Assembly (NCBI GenBank): GCA_949316235.1
Contig: OX438754.1
Coordinates: 5,131,501 to 5,195,500 of the forward strand
Direction: 5' to 3'
Length of the DNA stretch: 64,000 nucleotides
DNA from: Oegoconia quadripuncta
Lineage: Eukaryota > Arthropoda > Insecta > Lepidoptera > Autostichidae
The translations under genes were made by a program, and so were the position numbers. A model generated the notes under the pieces. The model was not told the origin of the DNA. It did not search any database and saw only the letters and a list, made by a program, of their open reading frames with translations. Within the stretch, counting starts at the first letter, position 1. Each line of letters opens with the position of its first letter. Positions 80 to 62,840 of this stretch are shown here, one piece after another.

Positions 80-282
80 TTAATGGTTATGTGTACTTCT
101 ATGAGAAATTATGGTATCGTCAAAAGTGTATATCACAGCTTTGCATCCCTTCCAGAAATGAGAAGAGCAGATCCATCGCTTTTTGACCGCGCCCAATCGT
201 GCGCTATAACTTTTCTTGTGGGAGTATGTGTAACCACACAGGCTTATCATGGCATTACCTCTCTGTGACGTCACGAATGTAG
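80..282 (-). CDS. mod(mdg4): FLYWCH terminal exon A
   Basis: Open for 66 full codons after acceptor TTTCAG, whose first exon bases (CT) finish a split codon. It reads TFVTSQRG..., then GYTY, KKRWICSSH and ends exactly at THNH plus TAA. Presumed zinc ligands are C38, C46, H64 and H66. The loop between the aromatic core and RW (residues 20-33) is about six residues longer than in most sister exons. Its opening TFVTSQRG matches exon X at the other end of the window, so these two are probably related. No ATG belongs to this reading frame; the exon can only be read when spliced. Confidence 0.85.
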
Positions 283-1575
283 CTGAAATACACCGTTCAT
301 TATAATTATGAATATTTTTTCAGGGTCACTCAAAAAGTAAAGAGTAACGGGATTTGAAAGTTGGTTAAAAAGTTTCTCTAAATGCTAAAGCACTTGAGTT
401 ACCAAAGGCTATAAAGAAATATTAAAAACGGACATCAGTCAGATGCTATTATGGTCCTTCTGAAATTTTAAGACATAATAATTTGAAAAAAGCTTTAATA
501 TAATACAAGATATTTAAGAAGCGGTGTAGACCAAAAAACTTTTTAAGTTAAACATTTTGGTGGAAAGACTTTTATATAGCACGAACAATTTGTTTCTTAC
601 GATTTGTTATTCACTTACAGAAATTTCTTCAAGTATTTTAAATGGGGATTCCCATATAATACGAGAATTATGGGTTATTAGGCATCAACTTAAAAGGGCT
701 TAAAATAACCTATTCTAAATAAGAGACCAGTAAAGTTAAAAAATAAGGAGATTTTAAGTGTCGAAAGAGAAATAGTAAAAACAGAAGACTTTACGAGTTT
801 GATCTAATCGTCAAACACCAGAGAATTAAGGCAGCGAGGCACGTTGTCGCTATTGGACAAAAGGCTTAATGGAAGGTTCAGCTGACAGTCGAATGTCAGG
901 CCGAAATGTAATATAACTGGGTATCGATTTTAATTTTTTCTGGACCGATTCTGTCACTGTTCTGTAACCATCACCTTCGTCGTCGCTGGTATATTCAAGC
1001 TGGAGGTTTCATGCTCTGGACATCAACAATAGAAACGGTCTATCGGGTCGTTCTATAGCATGTGACGCACCTACGCCTTATGCAATTAAGCACCTATTAT
1101 ATAGTGTCATTATACGCATAGCACGAGCCATCGTGTTTACTTTAATTGGTCCCACATTGCCATTGGCCGTATCAACATGAAATCACCTTCATTGGAATAA
1201 GTGACTGTTAAATTTTATAAGAGTGCACAAAGCTGCATGGCTCAGCAGAGACAGCAGAACAGCAACAGGACCAATCTTTTACTATTGCATGGTTTCCAGC
1301 CCATTTACGCTTACAGCTTGAACGTTATCGGTATCACTCATTCATCGTCCACGCAGAGCCGACTTGCGAGCGGGCCAATATGATCACTCCCCACTTACAC
1401 TTAAAGACTCTTTTCTCTTTGTGTTTTTTATATTAGAAAAAATATTAATGCTGGCACTAGTGTTGTATAATGATCATAATTACTTGGCGTTGCTTAACTG
1501 TTACAAATCTATGCCCTTTCCTGACTTTCTAGTCGAGTTGGCTAGCGATACTATCTGTGAAATTCTTTCCTGAGC
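283..1575. other. Intervals between exons A and D with nothing recognised
   Basis: I see no exon, domain or clear repeat in 283-1575, 1818-2404 and 4833-6210 (a small GC pocket at 5810-5855), nor in most of 3416-4680. There, 3775-3828 ends in TTACGGAACCCTAAAA, a common lepidopteran repeat tail. Short ORFs here have no recognisable composition. Confidence 0.5.
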
Positions 1576-1817
1576 TCATACTTCATCTAAAATTTTCCCG
1601 TACACACTCTTAAAAATCGATGGCTCGTGATTATGATTACTCTCATTGAAGATTATACTGCAGCCCAAAGTGAGGAGTTTAGCGGGACATCGACGCTTAT
1701 GCTTCCTGCACACCCATCTCACTCTTTTCGTTACTTTTGGTGTATATGATACTTTGCAAAATGGATAACCGCCTAGGAATATCGCGTCCGCCCCATTCTT
1801 CTTTGTCAACATTATAG
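1576..1817 (-). CDS. mod(mdg4): FLYWCH terminal exon B, divergent
   Basis: Open for 79 codons after TTTCAG, entered with CT. The N-terminal strand is unusual (KKNGADAIFLGGY) and lacks the usual basic xRGK turn. The zinc core is kept: RWVCRKHKRRC (C-x6-C) and NHNH. After HNH it continues 16 residues, through EPSIFKSVYGKI, to a TGA/TAA-type end, so its C-terminus differs from exons that stop at HxH. It is the most divergent intact member; neighbours A and C are no closer to it than any other. Confidence 0.75.
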
Positions 1818-2404
1818 CTGAAATGTAATTTGAAAGTCAGACACTAAATAATGTTTAGTTAGTATATGTTAGATTATCACGTCAATAGTTTGAAAGTGCA
1901 CTAATGGATATAATTCTCCCATGGAATGATTTGCATCGTTTTTCATGGATTTGGCCTAATAGCCATGCTGGGTAGTCGAGGTGGATTCTTTGGAAGCTCT
2001 ACACCAATGACGTTACTGTCACACTGGTATATAATATCGTTAATCCCTGATTTCTATAGGAATTATGCAAAACCATGGGAGCTACTCGCATGAGTATGAT
2101 GCGCCAATTAGCCCTAATATTCGCATCTCTTTCCGACCTACTTAAATGTTGATAAGGGACGGAGATACAAGGCGCGCAATTTATCGCGCATAATAACCTG
2201 AAAGAACTTTATATACTTTGGTAACCGTTTACTAATTTTCATATCATACTGTGTTACTTATTTTATAATAGATAACTGATAAGTTACTGGCGCGAAATGA
2301 AACAAAATTGATAAATCAACAAATCTTAAGTATTTATTTTATACATACAGTATTCCAGAAAGAATATGATTGTTCAGTATTCTTTGGTTAGGAAAAGAAA
2401 ATGG

Positions 2405-2595
2405 TGACAGCCAAATACTTTACTGCTTAATTGAGTTCATTTTTTGCTATTTCACAAAAAAAAATTGTATTTGTGGAACGTGCAACGATCTCATTGAACA
2501 ATGACAGCCAAATATTTTACTGCTCATTTGAGTTTTATGTTTTGCTCTTTTCCTACAAAATTTATTGTGGCACGTGCAACGATCTTATTGGACAC
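2405..2595. repeat. 97-bp imperfect tandem duplication
   Basis: Unit 1 (2405-2501) TGACAGCCAAATACTTTACT...CGTGCAACGATCTCATT; unit 2 (2502-2595) TGACAGCCAAATATTTTACT...CGTGCAACGATCTTATT. The middle of each unit is the most diverged part. Confidence 0.8.
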
Positions 2596-2629
2596 CAATG
2601 AATTGCATTGTTAAATTGCATATTGAAAG

Positions 2630-2826
2630 TCATTTCCTCTCATGGTTATGTTCATTATAAATAGCAACAATTTTATTATCTACTATATGGAGCCTGGCCT
2701 TGCAATATTTGTTCTGGGTGCATGACCATCTTCTTTTATCAGTTTTGTAGTTACCAGGTTTTAGGTAGAAGGTGTGATCGCCCACTCTTATATTCGTCTT
2801 CCCTTTTTTTGTCCTTATAAATGTTA
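2630..2826 (-). CDS. mod(mdg4): FLYWCH terminal exon C
   Basis: Open for 64 codons. Acceptor TTTACAG is followed by TA and then TFIRTKKGKTNIRVG. The core reads HTFYLK...KRRWSCTQNKYC (C-x5-C), and the end is EHNHERK. An upstream in-frame ATG lies in the intron and is a read-through, not a start. A 97-bp imperfect tandem duplication sits just downstream of the stop, in what would be its 3' UTR or flank. Confidence 0.82.
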
Positions 2827-4832: not shown

Positions 4833-6210
4833 TGCCGATAACATATTATATACAAATAAAATTGTTCGGCGTGTCTTTATAACGAATGATTTCCATTTTG
4901 AAAGAACAACCAAACTTTGTATGCAATTCATTATAAAATTTTACCGCGAAATAACTCTTCCTTGCATGTCACTTTTGCAAGATTCTCTTCAACTCTTCAG
5001 TTAAATAGAACTTAGATATATGCCTGTGCTGTCACAACTCCTTGACAATGACCCCGTCAACGGTGTGAAGAGTTGCATTGCACCTTTTATTGGCTGAACA
5101 CGCCCATCTCACAGACTTATTCAGAGTCCTATGCAACCTGTATTTATATCCCTTGTACACCAACACAGGTTTCCCTTGATAGGATTTCGTTAGGAATGCT
5201 GAAAATATTCACAAAATTGATTAACAACAGATCTGTAGATTTTTATATTAAAGACTTGCACAAACCTGTCCGCTTACGAGGGTTCGGAATTGGTCAATAG
5301 TAAAGGAACAGACGCAAGCGTCAAACTCATACAAGCTATTTTGCAGAGTTCATGGGAATGAATTCGGACTACTCGCAGATGGAATGGTTTGGGTATATTC
5401 TTCAAAAGATTATTAAAATAATCTTTAAATTACATCAAAACAAGTATTCAGAGTCAATGTTGATATTTACAGTCAAAGTGATCTGAATAATTAAAGACAA
5501 ATAAGGATGTTGCTGAAGATGATACCATAATTGTTCAGGTACAATTGACTTCTTCGGTAACCATTATCCATTTCATTCTATCTATTGAAATGGTTATATG
5601 TGGTGAATAATGTTATTATTGTTTCGTTCGAATCTATGTGTTTAGGTTTCTTCACAATAAGTAACCGAGTTTTTGTAGTAAACTAATAGAAAACAAAGTT
5701 TATTTTCTTTTCACAGTTTTAGAAATGACAGAAAATGTATATAAGAAAAGTTTTTAAGAAAAAATGCACTGTGTAATCGACGCCGCTGATTGACTTAATG
5801 TCGTTAAAATTGTCCGCGCCGTACGCGTTCCCGTGCGTCCGCGCGTACTATTATTGTCAAAGAAAGTCAGTAAGAATATCAAATTGGCTGCTTTCAGTAT
5901 TTAAATGCTCGCAGTGGATTGATACAGGCTTTATATGATAAATAATTTGAATATTACTAGGATTAAAATTAGAAACATCTGTATTCCACTCGAGTCACAA
6001 AGTTGCAACTGAAGGTACGTACTACCAGGAAAATAATCATGATCATTATCGATCTCATCTCAGGCCCCCACTATTGACGTAATTGAGAAGAAGAAAATAT
6101 TACCTATATTTAATAAAGAAGTAATGCTAAATACAAATGGAATTTAAAAACCAGTTCCGAAAAATATTTTTATTGTAACAATTTAAAATATAACTGCCTA
6201 TTCAAATATA

Positions 6211-7370: not shown

Positions 7371-7555
7371 TCAGTGAACATGTTCACCTTTTATCAGCAG
7401 TATTTCCCCCTCAACATTTGTATGGATTCTCGCTAAGCAATTTTTGTTCTTCGAGCACAGCCATCGAGTCTTCTTGTCGTTTTGACGGTGTTTTCTGTAA
7501 GTATGCCCTTCCAGCTGCAGCAGAATTTTGCCTTGTTTCGATATCTGGTACGTCA
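7371..7555 (-). CDS. mod(mdg4): FLYWCH terminal exon D
   Basis: Open for 60 codons after TTTCAG, entered with TG. It reads TYQISKQGKILLQLEGHTY, then KKTRWLCSKNKNC (C-x5-C) and ends GEHVH plus TGA. The first aromatic of the core is kept (H-T-Y), but the position after it is R instead of the common C or Y. A decayed duplicate follows about 0.7 kb upstream in the direction of transcription (8106-8268), sharing the CSKNKNCLAR block. Confidence 0.83.
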
Positions 7556-8105: not shown

Positions 8106-8268
8106 CAGTGAAACCTTTCTTCAAAATATTTACCCATCAATATGAATATGGAATCTTGCTAAGCAATTTTTGTTCTTCGAGCACAGCCAACGGATTTTGT
8201 AGCCGGTTTGTACAAGCCTTCATTAAATTCTAGCTACACCCTGCCACGTTGCGACAGCTGGTATATTA
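8106..8268 (-). pseudogene. Decayed duplicate of FLYWCH exon D
   Basis: On the minus strand, acceptor TTTCAG and the opening IYQLSQRGR are preserved. A TAG follows where D has the first core strand, and part of the loop is missing. After a frame shift the block RWLCSKNKNCLAR reappears almost unchanged, with a second stop in the original frame. DNA identity to exon D is high over positions 8150-8195. It therefore looks like a tandem copy that died by a nonsense change and a frame shift. Confidence 0.8.
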
Positions 8269-9485: not shown

Positions 9486-10180
9486 GAATGTAGGCATAAC
9501 AAAGCACTTACCTTGAGTAGAGGCGGTTCTTTTTATTTGGTTTAACTAATCGCAAAATCAATGGTTATGTACATTTCTAATTTTGACTATAACACTATCA
9601 ATGGTATGTAATAATGCGTTGCATCCTCTTACGCAACACATCCACCTCATTTTGCGTTGCTTCTGGCGTTGCTGCTGTGATATACCGAGTCGTTGACAGA
9701 ATTTATATTTGCCAATTCGTATCAATGTCTTCCCCTTGCAGGATGTTATGTATTCGCAACTCTCTGCAATTAAACATATTTAATTGTTTCATTTGGTATA
9801 TGGTGAATAGTGCTGCACAACTTCCATATGTAGGTGTACATTCATTAATTGCACGTAGATGAGCGAAGCGTCAGGAGTTAGCAGAATATGGATCTAATTC
9901 GGACCGCCAGCGATTATGGGTTTGCTGTGTATAGCGATTAGCGTAAGTAATAAAAGTTTGTATGATAGAACAAAATCAAAATCCGTTTGAAATGTCATAT
10001 TTGTATTATACGTCCAATTCCTACTACATTGTTTTTCATTGCAACTGAAAACAGAAAAGTTTCAGTGATGTTTTTAATATTATTTATGGCTTAGACACTA
10101 GTGATTTTTAATGCGATAATTTTAAAGTTCACAATTTTTTGCACACGGATAGGATTTAAAGAAAATCTAAAGACGCTATA

Positions 10181-11164: not shown

Positions 11165-11361
11165 TCACGATTTCATATGATTATGGATGCTATTAATTTT
11201 TATTATGACATGGTCGTAAGTATGCACTACGGCGCGGCACATTCGGTGGTTATGAGTGGAGCAAACCCATCTTGTCTTCAAACCAGAGACTGTTTGAGAG
11301 CAGTAGGTATATTCCCCGATCCTGAGTAAGGTTTTCCCGCGGCGTGATTTCACATAAGACA
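11165..11361 (-). CDS. mod(mdg4): FLYWCH terminal exon E
   Basis: Open for 64 codons from TTTCAG, entered with TG, then SYVKSRRGKTLLRIG. The core is EYTYCSQ...KTRWVCSTHNHRMC (C-x7-C), with VVHTYDHVIIKIN and end IHNHMKS plus TGA. All four zinc ligands are present. It combines the VKSRRG opening seen in O, P, V and W with the STHNH block of the 12-30 kb subfamily, so it may resemble the ancestor from which those groups split (inference). Confidence 0.87.
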
Positions 11362-12336: not shown

Positions 12337-12623
12337 TTAGAATGTTTTCTTGACTTGAATAGTTTGAATAACTAACGACGAATCCGTTACAGCTAACGAT
12401 GGCTCCGTTCTTGATGTTTTTTCACATTCTCGGGGTAAATGCGTGTGCATTGTATTCATTTTAATAATGACATACTCATAAGTACAAATAAAAGCTCTAC
12501 AACGTTTTGTGATGTGCGTAGAGCAACCCCATCGCCTCTGAAGACCACTTTCTTTTTGACAATAGTACGTGAATCCTTGGAAACGAAGCAAGGGTTTGCC
12601 TCTTTTAGATGTTTCAAATGTGA
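12337..12623 (-). CDS. mod(mdg4): FLYWCH terminal exon F with C-terminal extension
   Basis: Open for 94 codons; acceptor TTCCGCAG, entered with TC, then TFETSKRGKPLLRFQGF. The core is FTYYCQK...QRRWGCSTHITKRC (C-x7-C), ending HTHLPR. Sister exons H, I, J, L and M stop right after LPR or PPR. Here the stop codon is gone and the frame runs about 30 residues further (ECEKTSRTEPS... to VKKTF). The tail is rich in S, T and K with no recognised motif. First member of the tandem subfamily that spans 12.3-25.6 kb. Confidence 0.84.
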
Positions 12624-13872: not shown

Positions 13873-14063
13873 TTAACGAGGCACATACTATTATGTGTGT
13901 TTGAGATTAATTTTAATTGTGACGTAAAGTATAAAAGCATTACAATATTTCTTTTATGGGGAGATGTTCTATCTCCTTTGTAGACAAGACTATCTTTGAT
14001 AGTAATATGTGAACACATGAAGGCGAAGCAAGGGCTTTACTCTCTGAGATGCTTCAAATTTTG
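13873..14063 (-). pseudogene. Decayed FLYWCH exon G
   Basis: It aligns along its whole length with exons F and H: FEASQRVKPLLRLHVFTYYYQR, a remnant of the KRW region, NAF and HT. The acceptor AG is changed to GG (minus strand ...CGCGGCAAAATTT, where exon H has ...GCAGTGAAACTT). Stops interrupt the frame after YQR and at several later points, and eight bases are inserted before the CCTCG that encodes P-R. It is dead both as an exon and as a reading frame. Confidence 0.82.
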
Positions 14064-14534
14064 CCGCGAAACAAACTGCCGGTCTCTCCCGTATATAGGT
14101 ATTGTAAAAGGCGAAGATAAGGATCATATGGAAAAGTGTTGGTTAGTAACATTATTGGTACACAGCTTCTAAAAAAACATCGATGGTCAATGCTCAGAGT
14201 ATGGTGAGTAAGGCAAATCCTCAAATGAAAATGCAGAAGAAGTTTATAAAGAAGCAGCAGTAATGCAGTTATAAGCTGTTAATGCTAAGCCAAAAAAGTT
14301 ATATTAAGCATGAGATCTACCATATAAACAAATAAATATCTTTGGACATACACAGCGTCATCTGGTGCCACACTAAGCAACTTAGGTTTGTATTAATACA
14401 AAACCTTCCTTCCTTAAGCACACCAGATGGTTGACTACACAAATACATTTTTTTTAATTCGTACAATATTTTTTCTTTCCTAAGGAAATTGTACAACAAT
14501 CATATAGATAACTCAATTCAGGATTTTTTTATTA

Positions 14535-14731
14535 CTACCGGGGCAAATGTGTGTGCTTGGTACACATTTTAATTATGACGTCCTCATAAGTATAAATATG
14601 AGCGGTACAACGTTTCCTGCTATGCGTAGAGCAACCCCATCTCTTCCGTAGGCCAATTACTTTTTGGCAGAAATATGTAAATCCCTCGAGACAAATTAAG
14701 GGCCTTCCTCTCCGGGACGTTTGAAGTTTCA
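14535..14731 (-). CDS. mod(mdg4): FLYWCH terminal exon H
   Basis: Open for 64 codons after TTTGCAG, entered with TG, then KLQTSRRGRPLICLEGF. Core FTYFCQK...RKRWGCSTHSRKRC (C-x7-C), then AHIYTYEDVIIKMC and KHTHLPR plus TAG. An AATAAA lies four bases past the stop (about 14525-14531), one of the few exons with a poly(A) signal that close. Upstream in-frame residues beginning MGKTC belong to the intron. Closest to exon I. Confidence 0.88.
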
Positions 14732-18047: not shown

Positions 18048-18244
18048 TTATCGCGGTGGATGTGTGTGCTTGGTCCTCATTTTAATTATAGAGTCCTCAT
18101 AAGTATAAACATGAGCGGTACAATGCTTCCTATTATGCGTAGAGCAACCCCATCTCTTCCGTAGACCAGTAACTTTTTGGCAGTAGTAAGTGAATCCGTA
18201 GAGACGAAGCAAGAGTTTCCCTTTTTTTGATTTTTCAAATGTCG
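18048..18244 (-). CDS. mod(mdg4): FLYWCH terminal exon I
   Basis: Open for 64 codons after GTTCACAG, entered with CG, then TFEKSKKGKLLLRLYGF. Core FTYYCQK...RKRWGCSTHNRKHC, with AHVYTYEDSIIKM and end KHTHPPR. It shares the QKVxGLRKRWGCSTH block with H; the two probably separated by a recent tandem duplication. Flanked upstream by a possible solo LTR and downstream by a broken LINE ORF1. Confidence 0.88.
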
Positions 18245-19592: not shown

Positions 19593-19789
19593 CTATCGTG
19601 GTAAATGTGTATGTTTAGTATTCATTTTGATAATATCGTCCATATAAGTATAAATAAAAGCATTACAATGTTTCCCATGATGCGTAGAACAGCCCCATCT
19701 CTTCTTTAGGCCAGTATTTCTTTGACAGTAATATTTGAATCCATGAAATCGAAGCAAGGGTTTCCCTTTAACAGACCGTTCTATAATCG
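19593..19789 (-). CDS. mod(mdg4): FLYWCH terminal exon J
   Basis: Open for 64 codons. The acceptor is TTTTCGTAG, one of two non-CAG acceptors in the array (the other is exon P), entered with CG, then IIERSVKGKPLLRFHGF. Core FKYYCQR...KKRWGCSTHHGKHC (C-x7-C), with AFIYTYMDDIIKMN and KHTHLPR. The usual KKG or RRG turn is VKG here. All zinc ligands are intact. Confidence 0.87.
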
Positions 19790-21415: not shown

Positions 21416-21615
21416 TTACAATCGAGGCACATGTGTGTGTTTGTTGTTCATTTTAATAATTATATTCTCATAAGTACAAATAAAAGCGTTACACCCTTTC
21501 TTGTGGTGAGTAGAGCAACGCCATCTCTTCCTTACACTGGTATCTTTTTCACAGTAGTATCTGAACCCGTGGAGACAAAGCAACGGCTTTCCTTTCTTAG
21601 ATGTTTCCAATAATA
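21416..21615 (-). CDS. mod(mdg4): FLYWCH terminal exon K
   Basis: Open for 65 codons after TTTTCGCAG, entered with TA, then LLETSKKGKPLLCLHGF. Core FRYYCEK...RKRWRCSTHHKKGC, with AFICTYENIIIKMN and KHTHVPRL plus TAA, one residue longer than its sisters. An AATAAA occurs about ten bases past the stop. Pairs with L and M in carrying E at the CEK position and WRC instead of WGC. Confidence 0.88.
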
Positions 21616-23245: not shown

Positions 23246-23442
23246 TCATCGGGGCATATGTGTGTGCACCGTATTCATTTTAATAATGTTGTCCTCATAA
23301 GTACAAATAGAGGCGTTACACCGTTTCGCGTTGTGGGTAGAACACCGCCATCTTTTCCTTAAACTAGTTTCCTTTTCACAATAGTATGTGTAACCATTGA
23401 GACTGAGCAAAGTTTTTCCTTTCTTGGACGTTACATATGTCA
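23246..23442 (-). CDS. mod(mdg4): FLYWCH terminal exon L
   Basis: Open for 64 codons after TTTTTGCAG, entered with TG, then TYVTSKKGKTLLSLNGY. Core YTYYCEK...RKRWRCSTHNAKRC (C-x7-C), with ASICTYEDNIIKMN and VHTHMPR. Its first 17 residues (YVTSKKGKTLLS) are closer to exons N and X than to its own neighbours, which hints at exchange between exons (inference). Confidence 0.88.
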
Positions 23443-25387: not shown

Positions 25388-25584
25388 TTAACGAGGTAAA
25401 TGTATATGATTCTCGTTCTTTTTAATAATGATGTTGTCAAAAGTGTTAATAGACGCGTTACAATGTTTGTTATGATGAGTGGAGCAACGCCATCTCTTCC
25501 TTAAGCCCTTATCTTTCTCACAGTAGTATGTGAACCCATGGAAACGAAGCAAAGGTTTGCCTTTCTTAGACATTTCAAGTATCA
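25388..25584 (-). CDS. mod(mdg4): FLYWCH terminal exon M
   Basis: Open for 64 codons after CTTTTCAG, entered with TG, then ILEMSKKGKPLLRFHGF. Core FTYYCEK...RKRWRCSTHHNKHC, with ASINTFDNIIIKKN and end NHIHLPR plus TAA. Upstream in-frame codons continue without a stop for another 80 residues into the intron, but they are not FLYWCH-like and overlap a TIR element, so the acceptor marks the real start. A different TIR element begins about 90 bp past the stop. Confidence 0.88.
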
Positions 25585-29996: not shown

Positions 29997-30196
29997 TTAG
30001 GACCGAGGACTATGCGTGTGTTTGTTGTTAACTCTAATTATGACATCATCATAAGTGTACACGTGAGCGTAACAATGCTTGTGATTGTGTGTAGAACAAA
30101 TCCATCTCTTCTTTGCACCAGTTGTTCTTTGGCAGCAGAACGTATACCCCTGAATGCTAAGTAACGTTTTCCCTCTTCGAGACATCACATATTTCA
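29997..30196 (-). CDS. mod(mdg4): FLYWCH terminal exon N
   Basis: Open for 65 codons after AAATTGCAG, entered with TG, then KYVMSRRGKTLLSIQGY. Core YTFCCQR...KKRWICSTHNHKHC (C-x7-C), with AHVYTYDDVIIRVN and KHTHSPRS. A relative of F to M, separated from them by repeats. A 229-bp-offset tandem duplication lies directly past its stop. Confidence 0.87.
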
Positions 30197-33693: not shown

Positions 33694-33875
33694 TCAGTGG
33701 TTATGGCAATTATTTATTTTAACAATGATACTGTCTAACGTTAAAACACACGCCCGGCAGTTATGGTTTTTAGAGCACCGCCATCTTGTTTTTGGTCCAT
33801 TTATTCGATGCTTGCAATATGTGTAGTTACTGACTTTTAACAAATCGGTTCCTCGACTGGATTTCACGATTATCG
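33694..33875 (-). CDS. mod(mdg4): FLYWCH terminal exon O
   Basis: Open for 59 codons after CATTTCAG, entered with CG, then IIVKSSRGTDLLKVSNY. Core YTYCKH...KTRWRCSKNHNC (C-x5-C), then RACVLTLDSIIVKIN and CHNH plus TGA. There is no ATG in the frame, so start-codon-based gene finders would miss it. Sister of P, 470 bp away, with which it shares KSxRGT, VxNY, KTRWR and the shortened cysteine loop. Confidence 0.85.
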
Positions 33876-34348: not shown

Positions 34349-34530
34349 TCAATGATTATGACAATCATTTATTTTCACAATGACGCTGTTGAACATAAAT
34401 AAACATGCACGGTATTTGTTACTTCTAGAATACCGCCATCTTGTTTTTTCGCCGATCGGCTTATGCCAGTAATTTATGTAGTTACCAACTTTGATTAAAT
34501 TGGTCCCTCGGATTGATTTAACGATTATGG
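34349..34530 (-). CDS. mod(mdg4): FLYWCH-like terminal exon P lacking both zinc cysteines
   Basis: Open for 59 codons after CCTTTAG, entered with CC, then IIVKSIRGTNLIKVGNY. Fold-defining residues remain (NYINYW, KTRWR, end CHNH), but both presumed zinc cysteines are tyrosine: WRYSRSNKY where sister O has WRCSKNHNC. The cysteine after RA (RACLF) is not at a ligand position in the other exons. With the frame and acceptor intact, it is either a young non-functional exon or a domain that no longer binds zinc. A single G-to-A change can make each Cys-to-Tyr replacement. Confidence 0.75.

Positions 34531-34912: not shown

Positions 34913-34915
<3 letters not shown>

Positions 34916-34994
<79 letters not shown>
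34916..34994. repeat. (GT)n microsatellite
   Basis: About 39 uninterrupted GT dinucleotides, bordered by TATATATATGTA on the left and TATATATG on the right. Confidence 0.95.
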
Positions 34995-35000
<6 letters not shown>

Positions 35001-38546: not shown

Positions 38547-38734
38547 TTAGTGCGTATGAACGTTATTAATTTTAACAATTTCGTTTTCAAACGTGTGCAC
38601 AAACGCCCGACATCTCTTATAGTTGTGTGTGGAGCACTTCCATCTCTTTTTGGGTCCCCTTGCTCTCTCGACACAGAAGGTGAAGTTATCGACGCTTAAC
38701 AACGTAGTTCCTCTAATAGACCTCACATACTTGA
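38547..38734 (-). CDS. mod(mdg4): FLYWCH terminal exon Q
   Basis: Open for 61 codons after a long T tract and TTTCAG, entered with TC, then KYVRSIRGTTLLSVDNF. Core FTFCVE...KKRWKCSTHNYKRC (C-x7-C), with AFVHTFENEIVKIN and VHTH plus TAA. Its opening matches V and W, and its STHN block matches E and N. The 200 bp before its acceptor hold a dense heat-shock-element-like cluster (38829-38936). Confidence 0.87.
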
Positions 38735-40348: not shown

Positions 40349-40500
40349 TTAGTGATTATGCACGTTGTTTACTTTATACTATCGCCACCAAACGTGTAAG
40401 TATAAATACTGCAACTAATATTTGCAAATAAGTAGAGATATCACCTCTGATTAAAACAGACTGTGGTGATAGCTGAAGATTTTGAGTAAAATTTTCCACG
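40349..40500 (-). pseudogene. Decayed FLYWCH exon related to R
   Basis: Aligns at DNA level with exon R about 0.8 kb away: remnants of KIFSYHH, NQRW, the codons YTYTFGGD and the ending HNH plus TAA. A stop follows KIFSYHHSLF, the frame shifts in the RW-to-C region, and further TAG codons follow. No clean acceptor is visible where R has one. It lies head-to-tail with R, as expected for a tandem copy. Confidence 0.75.
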
Positions 40501-41115: not shown

Positions 41116-41330
41116 CTATTTCTTGTTAGGTTTCTCCGCTTTGCACTGGTGGTTATGGATGTTGTTATTTTTTATGACATCTCCACCAAACGTATAAGCA
41201 TACGCGTTGCAAGTACTAGGATGAGTAGAACAATGCCACCTCTGATTCAAACCGACTTTGTGGTGACGGCTGAAGATGAAGTTGTTAATTCTGAGCAAGA
41301 TGTCCCCGTTTTTAGATATCATGAAATCCG
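41116..41330 (-). CDS. mod(mdg4): FLYWCH terminal exon R
   Basis: Open for 70 codons after TTTTTTTCAG, entered with CG, then DFMISKNGDILLRINNF. Core FIFSRHH...NQRWHCSTHPSTC (C-x6-C), then AYAYTFGGDVIKNN and IHNHQCKAEKPNKK. The lysine-rich tail of ten residues after HNH sets it apart from S, T and U, which end at or near HNH. Member of the RINN(F/H/Y) subfamily. Confidence 0.86.
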
Positions 41331-42834: not shown

Positions 42835-43025
42835 CTAATAGTGATTATGGTTATCGTTCAGTTTAATTAATTCCTCTTCGACTGTATACGCAGATGCAAC
42901 ACACTTTTTACGGTAATGCATTGTGCACTGCCATCTCTGTTTCAAACCGATCTTGTAATGGCGATTAAATAAGTGATTATTAATTTTAAGTTGAGCAGTC
43001 CCTCGTGGAGTGTACAGTAAAGTCA
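42835..43025 (-). CDS. mod(mdg4): FLYWCH terminal exon S
   Basis: Open for 62 codons after TTTTCCAG, entered with TG, then TLLYTPRGTAQLKINNH. Core HLFNRHY...KQRWQCTMHYRKKC (C-x7-C), with ASAYTVEEELIKLN and NHNHY plus TAG. Proline replaces the usual basic residue before RG. Nearest relative is T (KINNH.F.R, GLKQRWQC). Confidence 0.86.
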
Positions 43026-45421: not shown

Positions 45422-45609
45422 TTAGTGATTATGATTATCCATAATTTTAATAACTTCGCCATTAAAAGTGTACAGGTGTGCGCCGCACTTCTTACTAAAA
45501 TGTTTAGAGCACTGCCATCTCTGCTTCAACCCGACTGCACATTGGCGGCCAAATATATGGTTATTAATTTTTAGCTGAATGTTCCCGCGTCGTGTTCTCA
45601 GCACTGTCA
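45422..45609 (-). CDS. mod(mdg4): FLYWCH terminal exon T
   Basis: Open for 61 codons after TTTTTCAG, entered with TG, then TVLRTRRGNIQLKINNH. Core HIFGRQC...KQRWQCSKHFSKKC (C-x7-C), with AHLYTFNGEVIKIM and NHNH plus TAA. The upstream region is a LINE fragment split by a TIR element starting only about 50 bp before the acceptor, so little native intron remains there. Confidence 0.87.
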
Positions 45610-50394: not shown

Positions 50395-51558
50395 GCTTGA
50401 AACAACATCCACGGTTCACCTTTCGATAAATATCCAACTTATTCCACATTCACCATTTCATCTTCGGACTACTAGGCGTTGGGAAGGATCTACTCCTACT
50501 CCTACCCCTTGCCACCGCCGGGCTCGTAATCCGGGACCGCGGCTTTCAGCTGCAGTCCGGGACCGAGGGTCTTGGCTTAACCGCCCGGACCGCGAGGAAG
50601 GAAAACCTCTATAAAAAACCAGCCCAAGTTTCGGCTCCGAGGCCCGCCTCGGCGCCGAAATGCCCTCGTCGTCCCGTCGTCGAGGGATGGTGGAGGGCGA
50701 ATTCCACCACAGCGGGCTGCGGCGAGGAAGCGGCGCTCCCTGAGGAATGCCCATCTGGGCAGGGGGCGCCGTGAAATCGTCTGCAGCACGTGGGCGACCT
50801 CTCCTTGACGACTGCAGCTAAGGCTGCGGCCGTCGACGAGAGGTCGTGGGGAGCGGCCCCCCCCCCTCTGTTCGGGGGGGTGGGGGTTAGACGGCGGGCG
50901 GGTCGGAGGGGCGGTGTCAGCCAGCTGCCTCTACGGGCCTCCCGCTGTTGCAGGCCGCTATGGTAGGGGACGACCTCTCTGTTGAGAGGTCGTAGCCGTG
51001 CGGGACGGCCACTCTTTGCCGCCCGCAGCCAGGTTTGAGCTGCGGATGCCAAGGAGGGGCCGTGGAAAGCGGTCCTCTCTCTCTGCGAGGCGTGGAAACC
51101 TCTGCGAGGTCGGTCACTCGCAGAGGCCTCGCGGAGGGGAAATGCAGCCGCACGGGGGGCACGGAGGAGAGCTTATCTTTACTGATAGGCGATCCTCTGC
51201 CCCCCTACCCTGCGGGGCCGTGGGTGGCGATCCGGGGGGATCACCGCCCACACATAGGCCCCGCGAGAAGGCGCGCGCGGTGTTTTCCGCGCGCCTTCTA
51301 GAGGTGGCTGGACCAGGCGATTCCTCCCTGCTCCAGCCCAGAGGTGGGCCTGCCGCCGCTTTTGCCCTGGCGGCGGGCACCGCGCTGGCGTGGCTGCGGA
51401 CGAATACCAGATGGTACCCGTGGCCACGCCGTCAACGGCGCGCGCGAGGGAACACCCAGGAGTTTTTAGTCGGTAGGCCGGCACCTTCTGTGCCGGAGAC
51501 CGACATAATCCGCCCCCCTCCCCCCCGAGGAGGGCGGATAAGCATGAGCGTTTCTCCT

Positions 51559-51606
<48 letters not shown>

Positions 51607-51855
51607 GTTGGGAAGGATTCCAACCGTATGTAGTTAACATACCGAACATTCGCACTAAGCGGTTCGACTCTTCATTCATAATGCGAACAGCCAAGGCATG
51701 GAAATCAGTCTTTCCTGAATCCTACAACCTTGCGATCTTCAAGAGCAGGGTGAATAGGCATCTACTGAGATCGCGTGCTCCATCTTCGGCCACATCGTCA
51801 CTTTCGATCAGGTGAGATTGTGGTCAAACGAGTATCCAGTTAACCATAACAAAAA
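50395..51855 (+). mobile_element. LINE RT C-terminus (Jockey/CR1-like) split by an R1-like element
   Basis: The outer pieces 50395-50489 and 51604-51835 join at a 15-bp duplication. Read in order they encode a LINE C-terminus: HLRTTRRWEG, then NIRTKRFDSSFIMRTAKAW and FPESYNLAIFKSRVNRHLL. A stop follows, then a short 3' UTR and poly(A) near 51850. Homologous tails lie at 36915-37075 (minus) and 45645-46100 (plus). Confidence 0.75.
50490..51603 (+). mobile_element. R1-like LINE 3' end, 1.1 kb, with 15-bp target duplication
   Basis: A GC-rich insert bounded by GGCGTTGGGAAGGAT at 50475-50489 and 51604-51618, ending in a 42-base poly(A). Just before the tail are two hairpins, GCCGGCAC/GTGCCGGAG region (about 51477-51500) and TCCGCC/GGCGGA (about 51510-51539). 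The long poly(A) and perfect target repeats suggest a recent insertion. Long open frames across it reflect GC content; I found no RT or gag motif. Confidence 0.82.
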
Positions 51856-53527: not shown

Positions 53528-53715
53528 TTAATGATTATGTATATTATTTATTTTAACAACTTCATTAAGAAAGGTGTATGCATAGGCAATACACTTTTTG
53601 CGATGATGGGTAGAGCACTGCCACCTTTGTTTCATGCCGACGATACGCTGTCGGTTAAACGTGTAGTTATTGATGCGGAGTAAAGGCGCCCCTCTCTGCG
53701 ATATTACGAATAACA
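53528..53715 (-). CDS. mod(mdg4): FLYWCH terminal exon U
   Basis: Open for 61 codons after TTGTTTCAG, entered with TG, then LFVISQRGAPLLRINNY. Core YTFNRQR...KQRWQCSTHHRKKC (C-x7-C), with AYAYTFLNEVVKIN and IHNH plus TAA. Shares RINN and KQRWQC with S and T, and AYAYTF with R. The 8 kb between T and U hold LINE, Tc1 and R1-like insertions, but I saw no exon remnant there. Confidence 0.87.
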
Positions 53716-55360: not shown

Positions 55361-55851
55361 ATGTCAGTAAATGTATATGTATAACACTGAGATAACACGA
55401 TACAAAATACTTAATTTTACTAAGATCATCCCGTTTTGCATTGCATGGGTTACGACGTGTCGCGTCCGACGCAAAAGTATTATACATTCCTTTATCCCTA
55501 CGTATTTGTAAAGAAGAGGTTTTCCCGATTCTCGGGCTTTCTTGTATAACAATTTGTTATCGGGTGTGAGATGTTCATTGACATAGACCTACAGTACATC
55601 GACCTGACCTGAAAATATCAGGTCATTGGTAGTGAGATGCTTACGTGCTCTGACTGCTGAGAGGAATTTATTTTTACGTTTGCTTTAAGTACACTGACCA
55701 ACTATGTTCCATGATGATTTATGTTGAGAGTTCAAGGACACTTGTGTTAGTGTACCCCTCAGCAACCGCGTTTGTGAATTTGTGTGCCAATATCATTGGG
55801 TAGAAGGGTAAAACCGACCTTGGTGCTGATGCAGAATAGAATCAGATATAT

Positions 55852-56215
55852 TAGGTCCTTACCTATGAAATTGGCGTTTTGTATTTAGATTTTCATTAAG
55901 ACTGTTTTCTCCATACAAACATTTTTTTTTTTTGGGAACGGCAAATCCAAATTTAGCTAAACTTTGTGTGTATTATCGGATAACATTAAGTATAGGCAGC
56001 GTTAATTTTTAAAAGTAACCGCTTTATAAAAGTTTCAGCGAATCTAAGAAATGATTATGGGAAGCACATGAATAGAGTTCTGTTCAAATTTTTTTTATTA
56101 TGTGATTTAGCCCAGAAATTAAAAAATATTTCATGTGAAACCTTGAAATAACATTCCATATTCCAAATAAACAACAAATTTGGATATAGCTCAGAAAATC
56201 GCAGGAATTGGTACA
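55852..56215. mobile_element. Same TIR family, copy 3, right end missing
   Basis: Starts TTAGGTCCTTACCTATGAAA and follows copy 2 closely through GAAGCACATGAATAGAGTTC to AAAATCGCAGGAATTGGTAC. The right TIR is absent. Confidence 0.75.
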
Positions 56216-56476: not shown

Positions 56477-56664
56477 TTAGTGGTTGTGATCTTCCTGTAG
56501 TTTAACAATCTTTTCACTAATGGTCCATGCATATGCTTGGCATTTTTTGGAACTGTGCGTCGAGCATCGCCATCTTTGTTTTGGGCCCTTTCCAAAATGC
56601 CTACAATAGTTGAAGTTTCCGACCTTAAGTAAAGTAGTACCTCTTATAGATTTCACGTATATCC
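56477..56664 (-). CDS. mod(mdg4): FLYWCH terminal exon V
   Basis: Open for 61 codons after CTTTTTCAG, entered with GG, then IYVKSIRGTTLLKVGNF. Core FNYCRH...KQRWRCSTHSSKKC (C-x7-C), then AYAWTISEKIVKL and DHNH plus TAA. The frame contains no ATG. A longer open frame in another register runs through the same bases but has no FLYWCH pattern. Closest to W (AYxWTI, KxGxF.YC). Confidence 0.87.
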
Positions 56665-57175
56665 CTGAAAAAGAAAATAAATTAAAAGCATCTCGACATA
56701 ATATTGTTGTTGCCTACTAGAGTCCAATAAGGATACACTTTTAACTTCCTATCTTAAAGACCGTGATTTTTTCACAGTCATGGAAAGAATACCTGTCAGT
56801 GACAGAATAAAAATGTTTTCTGACAAATCGGAGGCTTGCCATAGATATCGTATAGGTGTCTAGTAATAAAACGTAGACTATTAGATTAAAATTACTACTG
56901 GGAATTTCACTGCGTCGGAGAATATACGAAGACCTCCTATAACAATTTTCAAAAAAAAAAAACGATCAATATATTTTATGAAAAATTTCACCGAGGACAA
57001 ATATCACGACTCAATAAACCATTTTTAGAAAATATGCCAGTAGGCATGTAAAAACTGGGTGAAACCTTATCGGACAAGTTACACCAGCTTCAAGTAGCAG
57101 GGGATAAAAAATCAGCCACTCGCAGTGTAGGGTTCCATACTTGGCCGTCAGAATATGCTGACTTAAATAGAGTTT

Positions 57176-57495
57176 TAACCGCCTCCGTAGCTTAATGTAA
57201 ACAAGATTGGGTTTACGATTCGGAGGTCGCGGTTTCGATCCCCAGCGGGGTACATGTTTAAGTACTCCGTTTGGTTGGTGGTAGGGCATTTTAAATGGCC
57301 GCCTGGCTAGCTACCACCATCTTATCTAAATCTGCCGCCAAGCAGCATTGTTGTGTTCCGGTTGTCATAGATAAGATAGCCAGTCCCCCAAATGTGTTGG
57401 GGTTTCCGGGTCAGTACGCTTCCACCTTCGACCTTATCTTCACTTAACATCAGGTGTGATTGAGGTCAAGTACAAATCCGATGTGCATAAAAAAA
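57176..57495 (+). mobile_element. tRNA-derived SINE-2
   Basis: Head TTAACCGCCTCCGTAGCTTA, then GGTCGCGGTTTCGATCCCCA, body TTGGTGGTAGGGCATTTTAA, ending CAAATCCGATGTGCATA plus poly(A). Full length and close to the 39.4-kb copy. Confidence 0.85.
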
Positions 57496-58377
57496 AAAGT
57501 TTTGACATTGGAAATGTCGTTTCGTTCGCTTCAGTATAGGCTCCGATTTCACGAAAAAGTGCGATCCCCTTATATATCGAAGAGTGGTGAAGATATATAT
57601 TCAAAAAAGGCTTCAAAGACGCGTATTCATGAAAGCTGTAAGGTGCAAAAATAATTATCCGAGAAAGCCAAAAAGAAAAAAGTTATGGCCGAAATAGTGA
57701 AAAAAAAAAACTCAATTTCTTCCGAATTTTCGATTTTGGCGCCCGATATTTTGGAAACGCAGAATGATATCAAAAACTTGAGGAAAATTCCTCTGGACAA
57801 TTTAGTCAGCTACAATTTTGGCCCAAAACAAAGACGAAAAGGGTTTGCCCAGTAGCCTAACCTTTTTGAAAAAAGTAAAAAAGTCAGAACGACATTTTTC
57901 ACGTGACATTTATGACTTAATGTTTCGTTATCGGTGTTTGTTGTGAATTATCGGGGTTATGAGAGTATTCTGTTTGAGACTAGCCACAATATTTTTTTTC
58001 GAATTCCGTAGATTCATTTCCAATGTGCTCTATAGTCGTGTGAGGCACGAAATCTGTTAATTTTTTTGTTATTTCGTAAATAATTTTCAACGGAAAATAT
58101 ATTTAATCAGTTTGTCGACTATTACTCACTCAGTAACTTGTAGAATCTACTTATCTGTGATAGTTTACCTTTTAACTTCATTATATATAGGTACTACTGC
58201 CACGAATTTATTTCACATATCCAATTAGCTGGTGGGGGACGACGATGACACTTGACTCTCACAAAAATTGATACTTTAAAGTTTAATATTTCTTAAACTG
58301 ATCCCTGAATTGAAAACCACACGACGGGGTACAAAATTAAAAGATAATTCATGCCCACTTTATGTGTACATGTATTC

Positions 58378-58452
58378 ATGCTCGATGACCTCAATAGAGC
58401 CTCCCAAGGAGTGGATCTTAAAATGAATATGGACAAGACAAAGACCTTGATG
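58378..58452 (+). repeat. 75-bp perfect inverted copy of the RTE element's RT segment
   Basis: It encodes MLDDLNRASQGVDLKMN and DKTKTLM and is identical, base for base by eye, to the reverse complement of 59497-59571 in the neighbouring RTE remnant. Sequence on either side is unrelated. Confidence 0.85.
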
Positions 58453-58869
58453 ATGACCTACCTCCCCGGTAGGTTAAAAAAATATTTTTCAAGATTTTAT
58501 TTGACCACTGACTGCGTGATTAATATGTATACCCATGCCAAATGACTACTTTCTAGTACTAAGAGATTCTGAGCTTAGCCTCGGACAGACAGACGGACAC
58601 GGCGAAACTATAACGGTTCCTTGTTGACTACGAAAACCTAAAAAACAAACAAATTCACAAAATCACAGTTGTCTAATATGTACGAGTTAGTTTAATTATG
58701 TCCGAAAGATGATTGTATTGTTAAGAAACATGTCTACTTATTGACGCTTCGGAGAGCCGTATCGAAATTTATCGATGCTATTAAAATGCCTTTGACAAGA
58801 TCTCTAAAATTGTTTCTCCATTCGATGAATAGGCATACGTTAATCTGTTATCTCGCTCGGTAGTTAAAC

Positions 58870-60475
58870 CATCATCACATCAGCCGAAAGACGTCCACTG
58901 CTATTCAAAGGCCTACCCCAAAGATCTCCACAACGATCGATCTAGCGGCTTCCCGCGATTTTTACCAAATCGTCGGTCCACCTCGAGGGGGACTTGTCCA
59001 CGCTGCGTCTTCCGGTGCGTGGTCGTCACTCGAGAACCTTTCCGCTTCAATGGCCGTTGGTTCTACGAGCAATGTGCCCCACCCACTGCCACTAAAGTTT
59101 GGCAATTCTTCGGCTATGTCGGTCACTTTGGTTCTCTTGCGCATTTCCACATTTCTGATTCGATCCCGCAGGAAGACTCCGAGCATAGCTTTCTCCATTG
59201 CCCTTTGGGTAACCTGGCCTACTTATTAGGTCCATATTGAGCGACCACGTTTCAGTTATATATGTCATCACTGGCAACACACACTGATCAAAGACTTTCG
59301 TCTTGACACATTGCGGTATTTGGGACGAAAAGGTACGCAGCTTCTCAAACTGCCCAGCCGAGCTGGATTCGACGAATGACCTCCTCTTGAAGTTGGATTT
59401 ACCTACCTGGACTGTTTCTCCCAGGTAGACATACTCGTCGACAACTTCGAGGGTAATACCCCCTATCTTCAGAGGTGTGGGTACAATATGGGCATCCATC
59501 AAGGTCTTTGTCTTGTCCATATTCATTTTAAGATCCACTCCTTGGGAGGCTCTATTGAGGTCATCGAGCATTTTGCCGAGGTCCTTTAGGGTCACAGCCA
59601 TGATTTCGTCGACAAATTGAAGGTTTGTGATGTACTCGCCGTTGATGTTGATGGCGAGTTCTTTCCAGTCCAGAAGCTTGTAGGCATTTCCTAATGCAGG
59701 GTTGAAAAGTTTCGGATATATGACATCCCCCTGTCTTACACCTCGATGCAGTTGGATGGGCTTCGAATTCCGATCCTGGAGACGGACTGACATGTTGGCG
59801 CTTTCATGCAAACACTTCAATACCTCAATATACAGATAATCAATTTGGTACCGCAGTGTAGCTCAGGCGAATTGAAGGCTTTTTCGTAGTCCACGAACGC
59901 TAAGAATAGTGGCTGGTTATACTCTTCGGTTTTCTGTATAATCTGTCGCAGTGTATGTATGTGGTCTACGGTGCTAAAGCCGTTGTCGAACCTGCGTGCG
60001 AGACGATTCGTAAAGACTCTCGAGAACAACTTGTAGACTTGATTCAGAAGCGAGATGGGTCTGAAGTTCTTCAACAGGGTCATGTCACCCTTTTTGAAGA
60101 AAAGTACAACCACGCTCCTATGCCATGCCTTTGGCGTTTTTTCTTCGAGTATGACGGAATGAAATACCCTCTGAAGAGCTCTCAGCATTGGTCTGCCGCG
60201 TGCTTTCAGAAGCTCAGCCGTGATTTCGTCCCCACCCAGCACTTTGAGAGCCATTCTAATCTCATACAAGCTGACGTCTGGGATGTATTCCGTATAGTGC
60301 CGAGTCAACCTGAATCTTGGATTCGTGGGCAGATTGCTAACAGGCGGGATTCATGTCGTGTATAATGTCCTTAGAACTTCTCGAACTCTTCCATCACTTC
60401 TGGCACTGACGAGACTACCCCGTCATCCTCGGTCTTTAGCTTAATCAGCTGGATCTGTCCCACAAATTGTCCCCA
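58870..60475 (-). pseudogene. RTE-like LINE reverse transcriptase, inactivated
   Basis: Minus-strand reading from about 60475 shows the RT domain: VLGGDEITAELLKA, FFKKGDMTLLKNFRPISLLN, FVDYEKAFNS, then after a frame shift near 59820 LHRGVRQGDVIYPKLF and LQFVDEIMAVTL, KMNMDKTKTLM, VVDEYVYLGETVQVGKS and QCVLPVMTY. The catalytic FADD motif reads FVDE, so polymerase activity is lost. The C-terminus is in a third frame (58962-59198). The 5' endonuclease half is absent. Confidence 0.88.
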
Positions 60476-60936
60476 GTAGTTAAATAAAACAATTAATATA
60501 TCAGGTAAGTTTTAGATTATATAGCATGACATATTTTGCATAAATTTGATGTCAAATAAAAGTGATTTTGAAAATAAGTACTTTAATTTAATGACAACCT
60601 TTTTTGCTAGAAGTAAGTAATAATTAAGACTTACCTCCTAATACTCGAACACTTCCTAACTAGTACGCAAGGATGACCTTCCCACGGTGACTTTATTGAT
60701 TGTTCATTAATCGTTTGACTATGCACCGTGGTTTATTCATTTTTGGTATGGAAGCAATGAAATAAAAATTTATAAATGTCGCCGTGACCAAAATCACTTG
60801 TCCGTGTTATGCCCAAGAGTTCCTTAAACAACACTTCATCGCTTGGAATGTCAACGAAATGACAATTACATTTAAGGGGTTAAAGTTTAAGAAGCGTTCG
60901 AGTATTCGGTAGTTAGTGGTTGTGCTTGTCACTGAT

Positions 60937-61216
60937 GAATGGGAAGGTTTGGCAGCACAACATCCTGAATGGCGCAGGGTAGTGCATAGAGGAGTAAGCG
61001 ATTTTAAGGAGCAGCATAAAACGAGACGAGCTGAAAACCCGTCCACCCGCTGCCATGCATTATCACTAGGAAGGTGTGCATACGTGCCCACATTGCGCAC
61101 GTGAGTTCACCGCAAAGATCGGATATGTTAGTCATCTTCGAGCGCACCAGCGCCAAACCGATTAGGAGTCGAAATGATCGCCATGGCTGAAATCAGTCGG
61201 AACCATCATCATCAGC
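60937..61216 (+). mobile_element. Truncated LINE C-terminus inserted beside exon W
   Basis: Flanked by a 26-bp direct repeat (60911-60936 and 61217-61242). It encodes the end of an endonuclease/RT protein: LAAQHPEWRRVVHRGVSDF, then in another frame a C2H2-like finger CPHCAREFTAKIG...SHLRAHQR and a stop, as at the C-terminus of several insect LINE proteins. It ends in a CATCATCATC-type tail. Inserted antisense to exon W. Confidence 0.82.
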
Positions 61217-61218
61217 AG

Positions 61219-61406
61219 TTAGTGGTTGTGCTTGTCACTGATTTTAATAACTTCACCCTGAATGGTCCATATATATGCTGCGCATTGTCTGGAGTTATGC
61301 GTTGAACATCGCCACCTTTTTTTCAGACCGTCTGATCTATGAGCACAGTAGGTGAAACTGCCAATCTTAAGTAAAGTGGTACCAATCCGAGATTTCACAA
61401 AAAATC
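61219..61406 (-). CDS. mod(mdg4): FLYWCH terminal exon W
   Basis: Open for 61 codons after CATTTTCAG, entered with GA, then FFVKSRIGTTLLKIGSF. Core FTYCAH...KKRWRCSTHNSRQC (C-x7-C), with AYIWTIQGEVIKIS and KHNH plus TAA. The conserved R-G turn is R-I-G here. A truncated LINE inserted two bases past the stop; its target duplication copies the last seven codons and the stop to 60911-60936, leaving this exon intact but with a new 3' flank. Confidence 0.88.
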
Positions 61407-61564
61407 CTGAAAATGTAAACCAGATTAAAAAATATTTAGCCTTGTAGTGCAGGTTTTCAAATAACGTACACTTGGAATACAAAACACAGTCTTTAATCAA
61501 CACCACGGTATCCTGTGACAGAATGATTACTAGAATAATAGTTTTTGATTCGCTGACTGAAGAA

Positions 61565-61740
61565 AACTATGAGATGTACTTGGCCGAGCAGCGTAGGGCG
61601 TGTGCGGGCGCAAGGGACGCGAATGCTTTGTATCCCGGTCGGAGCCACACTGTCTGGCGGCGGGCGGTGTGGCTACGTGTGGCCGATTGGCGGGGAAAGG
61701 TTGCACGGGCGCGGTCATGCGTGTAGCACACACACTACAG
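61565..61740. other. GC-rich pocket upstream of exon W
   Basis: A 175-bp GC-rich stretch in AT-rich surroundings, about 160 bp before exon W's acceptor. It holds a hairpin GCCACAC...GTGTGGC (61643-61674) and GGCCGATTGGCGGGG (inverted CCAAT plus GC box, 61681). The open frames across it look like composition artefacts. Promoter-like or a repeat core; undecided. Confidence 0.3.
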
Positions 61741-62652
61741 CCTCAAATTATTGCCTGTCAGACAGCGTGTGTATTTACGAAAGATCATTGTACATCAAGT
61801 GCTTTTGAATAGATTAGAGCAACTTTGCAACACTACAATGCAACAAGTCGTTACTGAGGGTCAATAAATGTATCGCTCACCCTTTTAAAGCCTTATGCGT
61901 CATTAGAATAATTTTAACCAAGTAAAAAGAATTTGTAAATAAAATGGATTTTTTACCAAAAAAAAAAAAATTGGCACGATTCAAGCAATAATTTTACCAA
62001 GTGTTATAATACCACTTTCGAATCGTTACGAAATGGGCCAACTTTTAACGTTACTTGCCAGACTTGCTTAGTACATTTTTTTTTCAGTAGAGGCAGTTAA
62101 ATATGGGCAAACTTATTACTTTGAAGTTTTTTTTGGGAAAAAATCCAAATTTTTATCCATGTTGGACCAGCTGGTTTTGAAATTTTCATAATAGTTTACA
62201 GCAGCATTGTTCAGAGTTACAAAACAAAAATTGGAATAAGTCGAGATTTGTGGCAATAGGAGTAAAAAGACTGTCACAGGGTGTGGAATTTTTCGACTTT
62301 TTTTAAAATACTTATAATTTTAAAAACTTGCAACTTAGATTTTTTTTTTATTTTTCTATTAACCGGTATGACTTGCCTTGTCACCCGGTTCCGGCTTGAC
62401 GTCGAGTTTTGGGACACCCTGTATATAAACTACAGCTTGACATTCTTATTTTGCCTGTTAGGGATTTGTTTATGAGATAAATATATTTCATAAACAATAT
62501 GAGATAAATAGTTATTTCATTGCGTGGCAGCACCATCTACTGTCATTTCTTAGGGTGTCGTCTTAAAATTCTTGTAGAATTTTCCAAAAAGATGGAAAAT
62601 TTACAGAAATTAGTCGAGTCGCCAGTTCTCGTAGAAAATAAAACAAAAATGT

Positions 62653-62840
62653 TTAGTGGCAATGTTCGTTTGCTATTTTAACAATTTCGTTATTGTAAGT
62701 ATGTATTGCCGCCCGACATTTCTTGCAATGGTGAGTAGAGCATACCCATCTGCACCTCGGACCTGACACTCTTGCTGCACAGTAATTATAACCGCCGAAA
62801 CTGAGCAAGGGCTTCCCGCGCTGTGACGTCACGAACGTCA
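62653..62840 (-). CDS. mod(mdg4): FLYWCH terminal exon X
   Basis: Open for 61 codons after GTTTCAG, entered with TG, then TFVTSQRGKPLLSFGGY. Core YNYCAA...RCRWVCSTHHCKKC, with AAIHTYNNEIVKIA and end EHCH plus TAA. An extra cysteine sits between the ligand pair (HHCKKC). The last exon before the right edge; 1.1 kb of flank beyond it shows no further exon. Confidence 0.87.

Follow-up and report, generated by a model that had tools for sequence, protein, structure and literature searches.

A same-strand array of FLYWCH last exons in Oegoconia quadripuncta, probably part of the 3' acceptor array of a mod(mdg4)-type gene

The window analysed here, a stretch of 64,000 nucleotides from the autostichid moth Oegoconia quadripuncta (GenBank assembly GCA_949316235.1, contig OX438754.1, positions 5,131,501 to 5,195,500), contains 27 units coding for the FLYWCH zinc finger (PF04500), all of them on the minus strand and spanning positions 80 to about 62840. 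The window very probably holds a portion of the 3' acceptor exons of a lepidopteran gene of the mod(mdg4) type, whose common BTB-containing part would be completed by one of these exons in each product. The hallmarks of such a gene that were found are several FLYWCH 3' exons (27 units, 23 of them intact) and splice acceptors of one phase in exons with their own stops, and it is because of the common phase and the individual stops that the exons are taken as alternatives. A first-pass annotation had already read the stretch as mod(mdg4)-type alternative 3' exons, a reading now well supported by the phase, the stops, the acceptor-like tracts, and BTB-containing relatives with differing FLYWCH ends. 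With the outermost units lying 79 and 1,160 bases from the ends of the window, it is plausible that the array continues past both of them, so that neither end is in view.

The FLYWCH exons of the window

The units were detected by an iterated search of the 1,546 stop-to-stop open reading frames (ORFs) of at least 25 amino acids on both strands, using a profile built from the window's own units. Scores of 69 to 104 bits were obtained for 25 of the 27 units, with the broken fragments u6 and u10 at 28.4 and 14.9 bits, respectively; the reversed window, searched with the same window-built profile, gave a top score of 11.7 bits among 1,537 ORFs. Because its score stands so close to that control, u10, which lies in two pieces, rests mainly on a tblastn match (expectation value, E, 5e-14), and the low-scoring u6 was also supported by tblastn. 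The Pfam FLYWCH family was recognised at E 0.001 or better in 24 of the 25 units scanned (u6 and u10 being left out of the scan). The whole WxC...C...HxH pattern, the residues of which we take to be the zinc ligands, is kept in 23 of the 27 units, the others being u4, in which a nonsense codon precedes HxH, the fragments u6 and u10, and u19, which is open and has Tyr in place of both ligand Cys.

The earlier description of a FLYWCH exon array confined to one strand was thus confirmed (27 minus-strand units and none on the plus strand), and the exon starts listed at 282, 1817, and 2826 were matched exactly. The accompanying count of 23 open and three dead exons held for the three broken copies, whereas the total came to 27 units and one scrap rather than 26, comprising 23 intact units, u19 without its Cys ligands, and the three broken ones. 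The scrap, similar to u21, was picked up by relaxed tblastn with one query (E 7e-4). A weak match at 34889-35025 was rejected as an extra unit, being a CA repeat. No convincing unit was found on the plus strand, where tblastn gave a single region (39950-39991, E 0.029), and another search of the window with lepidopteran BTB proteins among the queries returned no plus-strand row among 1156.

The acceptor check covered about 20 bases round each domain start. In 25 of the 27 units the domain begins after an AG of one phase, with two bases between this AG and the first full codon, so that the earlier claim of the same phase for all holds for these 25 and was not borne out for u6 and u10. The site is at the usual place in 24 units; that of u7 lies about six bases (two codons) upstream and is one of three AGs. 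In u6 the stretch examined contains no AG of the common phase, and the in-phase AG of u10, 12 bases upstream of the usual place and preceded by a purine-rich stretch, was not counted. The pyrimidine fraction before the 25 acceptors is 0.69, compared with 0.50 before 639 other CAG sites in the window (p about 6e-9). The exons measure 167-287 bases including the stop, and the distance from one exon start to the next ranges from 655 to 8,106 bases, with a median of 2,175. The stop falls 0-4 codons past HxH in 21 of the 25 exons, 10 codons past it in u21, 16 in u2, and 33 in u9, and before it in u4; the claim that each exon carries its own stop was therefore borne out, with 24 of 25 open through HxH.

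Selection on the exons was assessed from the ratio of nonsynonymous to synonymous substitution rates (dN/dS) in the 53 of 300 exon pairs with a computable dS below 2, the remaining 247 being unused, and the ratio had a median of 0.29 and a maximum of 0.71. The exons of the 12 closest pairs can be aligned, whereas their 600 bp flanks cannot, on either side, in any of the 12. The low dN/dS and the alignment of exons between unalignable flanks together point to past selection on the exons.

The fold was modelled for u20 only, with AlphaFold on a 25-row alignment, giving a mean predicted local distance difference test score of 90.5 and a predicted template modelling score of 0.70. The top PDB match of the model was 2rpr, the fifth FLYWCH domain of human FLYWCH1 (template modelling score 0.80, E 0.0065, with no match at 0.001 or better), and the sequence profile matched 2rpr alone (E 3e-5). 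Human FLYWCH1 shares the fold and differs in holding several FLYWCH domains in one protein, which are not known to be alternative exons. As regards function, the available portion of one study reports that the FLYWCH domain of fly Mod(mdg4)-67.2 aided recruitment and the interaction with CP190, and that the protein without this domain still rescued the mutant (PMC5666082). A DNA-binding role for the FLYWCH C-termini would therefore be an assumption.

BTB-containing relatives and competing explanations

Relatives with a named source made up 4 of the 7 rows of one search and all 18 longer proteins of another, and all of them belong to genera that we take to be lepidopteran; a single unit used as the protein query found no relative. 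Two of the 18 combine BTB with FLYWCH, namely isoform X11 of Pararge and isoform X5 of Papilio, both named tramtrack beta isoform, and it is from these isoform labels that several isoforms per gene are deduced. In a comparison of one protein per species, their N-termini are near-identical and their FLYWCH ends differ, and the BTB domain is 71% identical over 119 residues to that of Drosophila Mod(mdg4). Each of the two proteins contains two FLYWCH domains, and two exons may therefore be used together. Two such domains in one protein had been named in the first-pass annotation as a sign against alternative use; the sign is present in both BTB relatives, yet the alternative-exon reading stands.

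Under the proposed mechanism, a common 5' part with a BTB domain of the ttk group, ending one base into a codon, would be joined to one FLYWCH exon at a time and sometimes to two in a row. The products would share the same multimerising N-terminus and bear different FLYWCH ends, which may steer them to different chromatin partners. On the strength of the published lepidopteran cases, trans-splicing between separate pre-mRNAs would account for at least part of the joining.

Several results weigh against this interpretation. The BTB exon was not found in the window: the best tblastn match of the fly BTB domain had an E of 0.87, residues 1-281 of both lepidopteran BTB proteins had no window match at E 1 or better, and no Pfam BTB domain was found in the 99 non-FLYWCH ORFs of at least 75 amino acids. 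Ready 3' ends are not visible, because AATAAA or ATTAAA lies no more than 200 bp from the stop in 10 of 25 exons and is no commoner than at random positions (0.43), and no common motif above chance was found upstream of the acceptors. Sixteen of the 18 longer relatives have no listed BTB domain (13 are listed with FLYWCH alone and three with one further domain), with 2 to 12 FLYWCH domains each. This last point, together with the two FLYWCH domains of both BTB proteins, favours the view that the units are spliced consecutively into one or a few BTB-less FLYWCH polyproteins. Many of the listed relatives are, however, automatic predictions, and most of the 16 are in our judgement joins made by gene prediction. 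Consecutive splicing is at odds with the reading frames of 24 of 25 exons, which stay open past HxH and then reach a stop, in 21 cases no more than four codons on. Donors were scanned in phase from about residue 20 on, with a consensus matrix and a score above 3; one downstream of the W-x-C core was found in u2, u5, and u26 only, that of u2 being beyond its HxH, and those of u5 (7387) and u26 (61256) could serve a polyprotein as late-domain donors. In u3, u16, u17, u25, and u27 the only in-phase donors lie ahead of the core. Splicing onward into the next unit was accordingly judged unlikely for most units, and the polyprotein is on balance very unlikely. The candidate donor of u5 lies on the minus strand near the place corresponding to the transition from the first to the second FLYWCH domain of the Papilio protein.

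Still less probable, to the point of being hardly credible, is a tandem series of independent FLYWCH genes that would each have a promoter and a start codon to themselves and perhaps descend from a transposon. An alphabaculovirus has been reported to carry a FLYWCH protein in a putative transposable element (PMC4447894, in the portion available), remains of mobile elements occur in the window, and an in-frame ATG is found ahead of the exon, before the next upstream stop, in 9 of 25 exons. The other 16 have no such ATG, the one-phase acceptors at the domain start of 25 of the 27 units would be useless to single-exon genes, and neither the transposase-like nor the reverse-transcriptase-like ORF found with Pfam is joined to a unit. 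A variant of the mod(mdg4)-type reading, with which its odds overlap, retains the array and supposes purely cis alternative splicing of one long transcript. It draws on the presence of every unit on one strand and on the cis-spliced mod(mdg4)-like genes of a beetle, a bee, an ant, and Daphnia, whereas trans-splicing has been reported in Bombyx, Danaus, and Plutella, with 33 of 40 monarch isoforms coming from the strand opposite the donor (all PMC4667647, in the portion available); exclusive cis-splicing is hence rather unlikely.

History of the array and the sequence between its exons

Identity between exons falls with distance along the array (Spearman -0.36, with none of 2000 permutations as low). 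A tree was built from 25 window rows and 65 foreign domains, after 33 domains shorter than 50 residues and one near-duplicate had been dropped from 99; with 61 columns and an unsettled bootstrap, only its better-supported forks were used. The foreign domains were drawn with window sequences as bait, and missing orthologues accordingly prove nothing. The window rows cluster without forming one clade: the tree has 12 label changes, compared with 21.9 after shuffling, and none of 500 shuffles gave so low a number. Among the forks, u3 groups with Parnassius, Choristoneura, Colias, and three more domains (seven rows, 99/88), being 77-87% identical to the Parnassius and Choristoneura domains and one further domain; u1 groups with Operophtera and two Leptidea domains (96/95), u4 with Iphiclides (97/97), and u9 and u11-u16 with one Colias domain (94/97, just below the mark of the tool). 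The array might be a fast-turning repertoire of chromatin-targeting ends, in which a few old exons such as u3 would be kept among Lepidoptera and neighbouring ones (u9 and u11-u16) would duplicate locally, diverge, and die, perhaps in pursuit of changing mobile elements, a scenario that we put forward tentatively and hold to be distinctly improbable. In the fly, Mod(mdg4) variants have been reported to repress the telomeric element HeT-A (PMC9723646, in the portion available).

The sequence between the exons contains several remnants of other kinds. Two adjoining minus-strand ORFs at 59095-60350, with reverse transcriptase matches below the Pfam cut-off, represent a decayed retrotransposon inside the array, and a minus-strand ORF at 47622-48095 resembles the N-terminal part of a Tc1/mariner transposase (HTH_32 above the Pfam cut-off, HTH_Tnp_Tc3_2 and HTH_23 below it). 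The minus-strand ORFs at 15892-16224 and 31020-31400 share 33% identity over 94 residues and by eye resemble the end of a reverse transcriptase of long interspersed nuclear elements, with no Pfam match. Long overlapping ORFs on both strands at 50430-51721, beside a run of 42 A at 51562-51603, are perhaps a retroposed insert. A dispersed repeat of about 360 bp is present in three copies about 92-93% identical (40646-41013, 49571-49933, and 55847-56207), further short repeat families occur between exons, and a 229-bp unit is present as a tandem pair, with 91% identity between the copies, at 29483-29924, just downstream of u17 on its strand. Long non-FLYWCH ORFs number 30 on the minus against 17 on the plus strand at 90 amino acids or more, and 112 against 103 at 60 or more; linker exons were considered as the source of the minus-strand excess, and several of the ORFs look by eye like retrotransposon pieces. 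No tRNA (in a scan that used the bacterial code) or Rfam gene was found in the window, and a phage collection gave no match for 57000-61200. The coordinates of the units are collected in Table 1.

Table 1. FLYWCH units of the window and the evidence for each
Feature	Position	Strand	Evidence
u1 FLYWCH last exon, intact	80..282	-	profile, acceptor, stop
u2 FLYWCH last exon, intact, divergent	1576..1817	-	profile, acceptor, stop
u3 FLYWCH last exon, intact, related domains in other Lepidoptera	2630..2826	-	profile, acceptor, stop
u4 FLYWCH exon, nonsense codon before HxH	5032..5198	-	profile, translation
u5 FLYWCH last exon, intact, with a candidate in-phase donor (7387)	7371..7555	-	profile, acceptor, stop, donor scan
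u6 broken FLYWCH fragment	8133..8216	-	profile, tblastn
u7 FLYWCH last exon, intact, acceptor shifted upstream by about six bases	9558..9763	-	profile, acceptor, stop
u8 FLYWCH last exon, intact	11165..11361	-	profile, acceptor, stop
u9 FLYWCH last exon, intact, with the longest tail past HxH (33 codons)	12337..12623	-	profile, acceptor, stop
u10 broken FLYWCH copy (two pieces)	13894..14067	-	profile, tblastn
u11 FLYWCH last exon, intact	14535..14731	-	profile, acceptor, stop
u12 FLYWCH last exon, intact	18048..18244	-	profile, acceptor, stop
u13 FLYWCH last exon, intact	19593..19789	-	profile, acceptor, stop
u14 FLYWCH last exon, intact	21416..21615	-	profile, acceptor, stop
u15 FLYWCH last exon, intact	23246..23442	-	profile, acceptor, stop
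u16 FLYWCH last exon, intact	25388..25584	-	profile, acceptor, stop
u17 FLYWCH last exon, intact	29997..30196	-	profile, acceptor, stop
u18 FLYWCH last exon, intact	33694..33875	-	profile, acceptor, stop
u19 FLYWCH exon, open, both ligand Cys replaced by Tyr	34349..34530	-	profile, acceptor, stop
u20 FLYWCH last exon, intact, structure modelled	38547..38734	-	profile, acceptor, stop, model
FLYWCH scrap resembling u21	40372..40416	-	tblastn
u21 FLYWCH last exon, intact	41116..41330	-	profile, acceptor, stop
u22 FLYWCH last exon, intact	42835..43025	-	profile, acceptor, stop
u23 FLYWCH last exon, intact	45422..45609	-	profile, acceptor, stop
u24 FLYWCH last exon, intact	53528..53715	-	profile, acceptor, stop
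u25 FLYWCH last exon, intact	56477..56664	-	profile, acceptor, stop
u26 FLYWCH last exon, intact, with a candidate in-phase donor (61256)	61219..61406	-	profile, acceptor, stop, donor scan
u27 FLYWCH last exon, intact	62653..62840	-	profile, acceptor, stop

Comparison with known mod(mdg4) systems

The published systems are described here as they appear in the available portions of the sources. The mod(mdg4) gene of Drosophila melanogaster encodes a common BTB N-terminus of 402 amino acids in four exons and at least 31 isoforms, with FLYWCH in most of the variable ends (PMC4667647, PMC5666082); the array of the window is alike in its FLYWCH ends, whereas the fly exons lie on both strands and the fly donor is known. 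Closer likenesses are provided by the mod(mdg4) genes of Danaus plexippus, Plutella xylostella, and Bombyx mori, all with many alternative FLYWCH 3' exons. In the monarch, 24 acceptor genes extend over 550 kb and give at least 40 isoforms (PMC4667647) with use of both strands, whereas the present locus holds 23 intact units in 63 kb, all on one strand within the window. Anopheles gambiae has donor and acceptor exons on one strand (PMC4667647) with 35 combinations; it is a dipteran, whereas the relatives of the window are lepidopteran. Three BTB-FLYWCH genes were counted in the silkworm and five in the monarch in a paper whose available text does not use the term mdg4 (PMC4033408), and the origin of Mod(mdg4) has been placed in Neoptera (PMC5094011).

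Size, order, and turnover had been put forward in the first-pass annotation as the novel part of the array, and it had contrasted the single strand with the fly; in this light neither the size nor the one-strandedness is new. Acceptor combinations number 31 in Drosophila melanogaster, 9 in Bombyx, 40 in Danaus, 41 in Plutella, 35 in Anopheles, and 34 in Aedes, so that 31-41 are on record for five of the six insects; the same-strand layout has been published for Anopheles; and the general idea of expansion is in print, duplication and expansion of FLYWCH acceptors having been proposed (all PMC4667647). A description of this very locus was not found in the literature searched, a partial library. 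What remains is a well-resolved further example: a compact array on a single strand, in which one exon is shared with other Lepidoptera, seven exons form a local group, and some copies are broken.

No new kind of system is thereby added. The array is rather a compact example, with exact borders and one phase, of the way alternative ends are kept in a BTB chromatin gene, and one in which the birth, divergence, and loss of mod(mdg4) exons are countable between close species.

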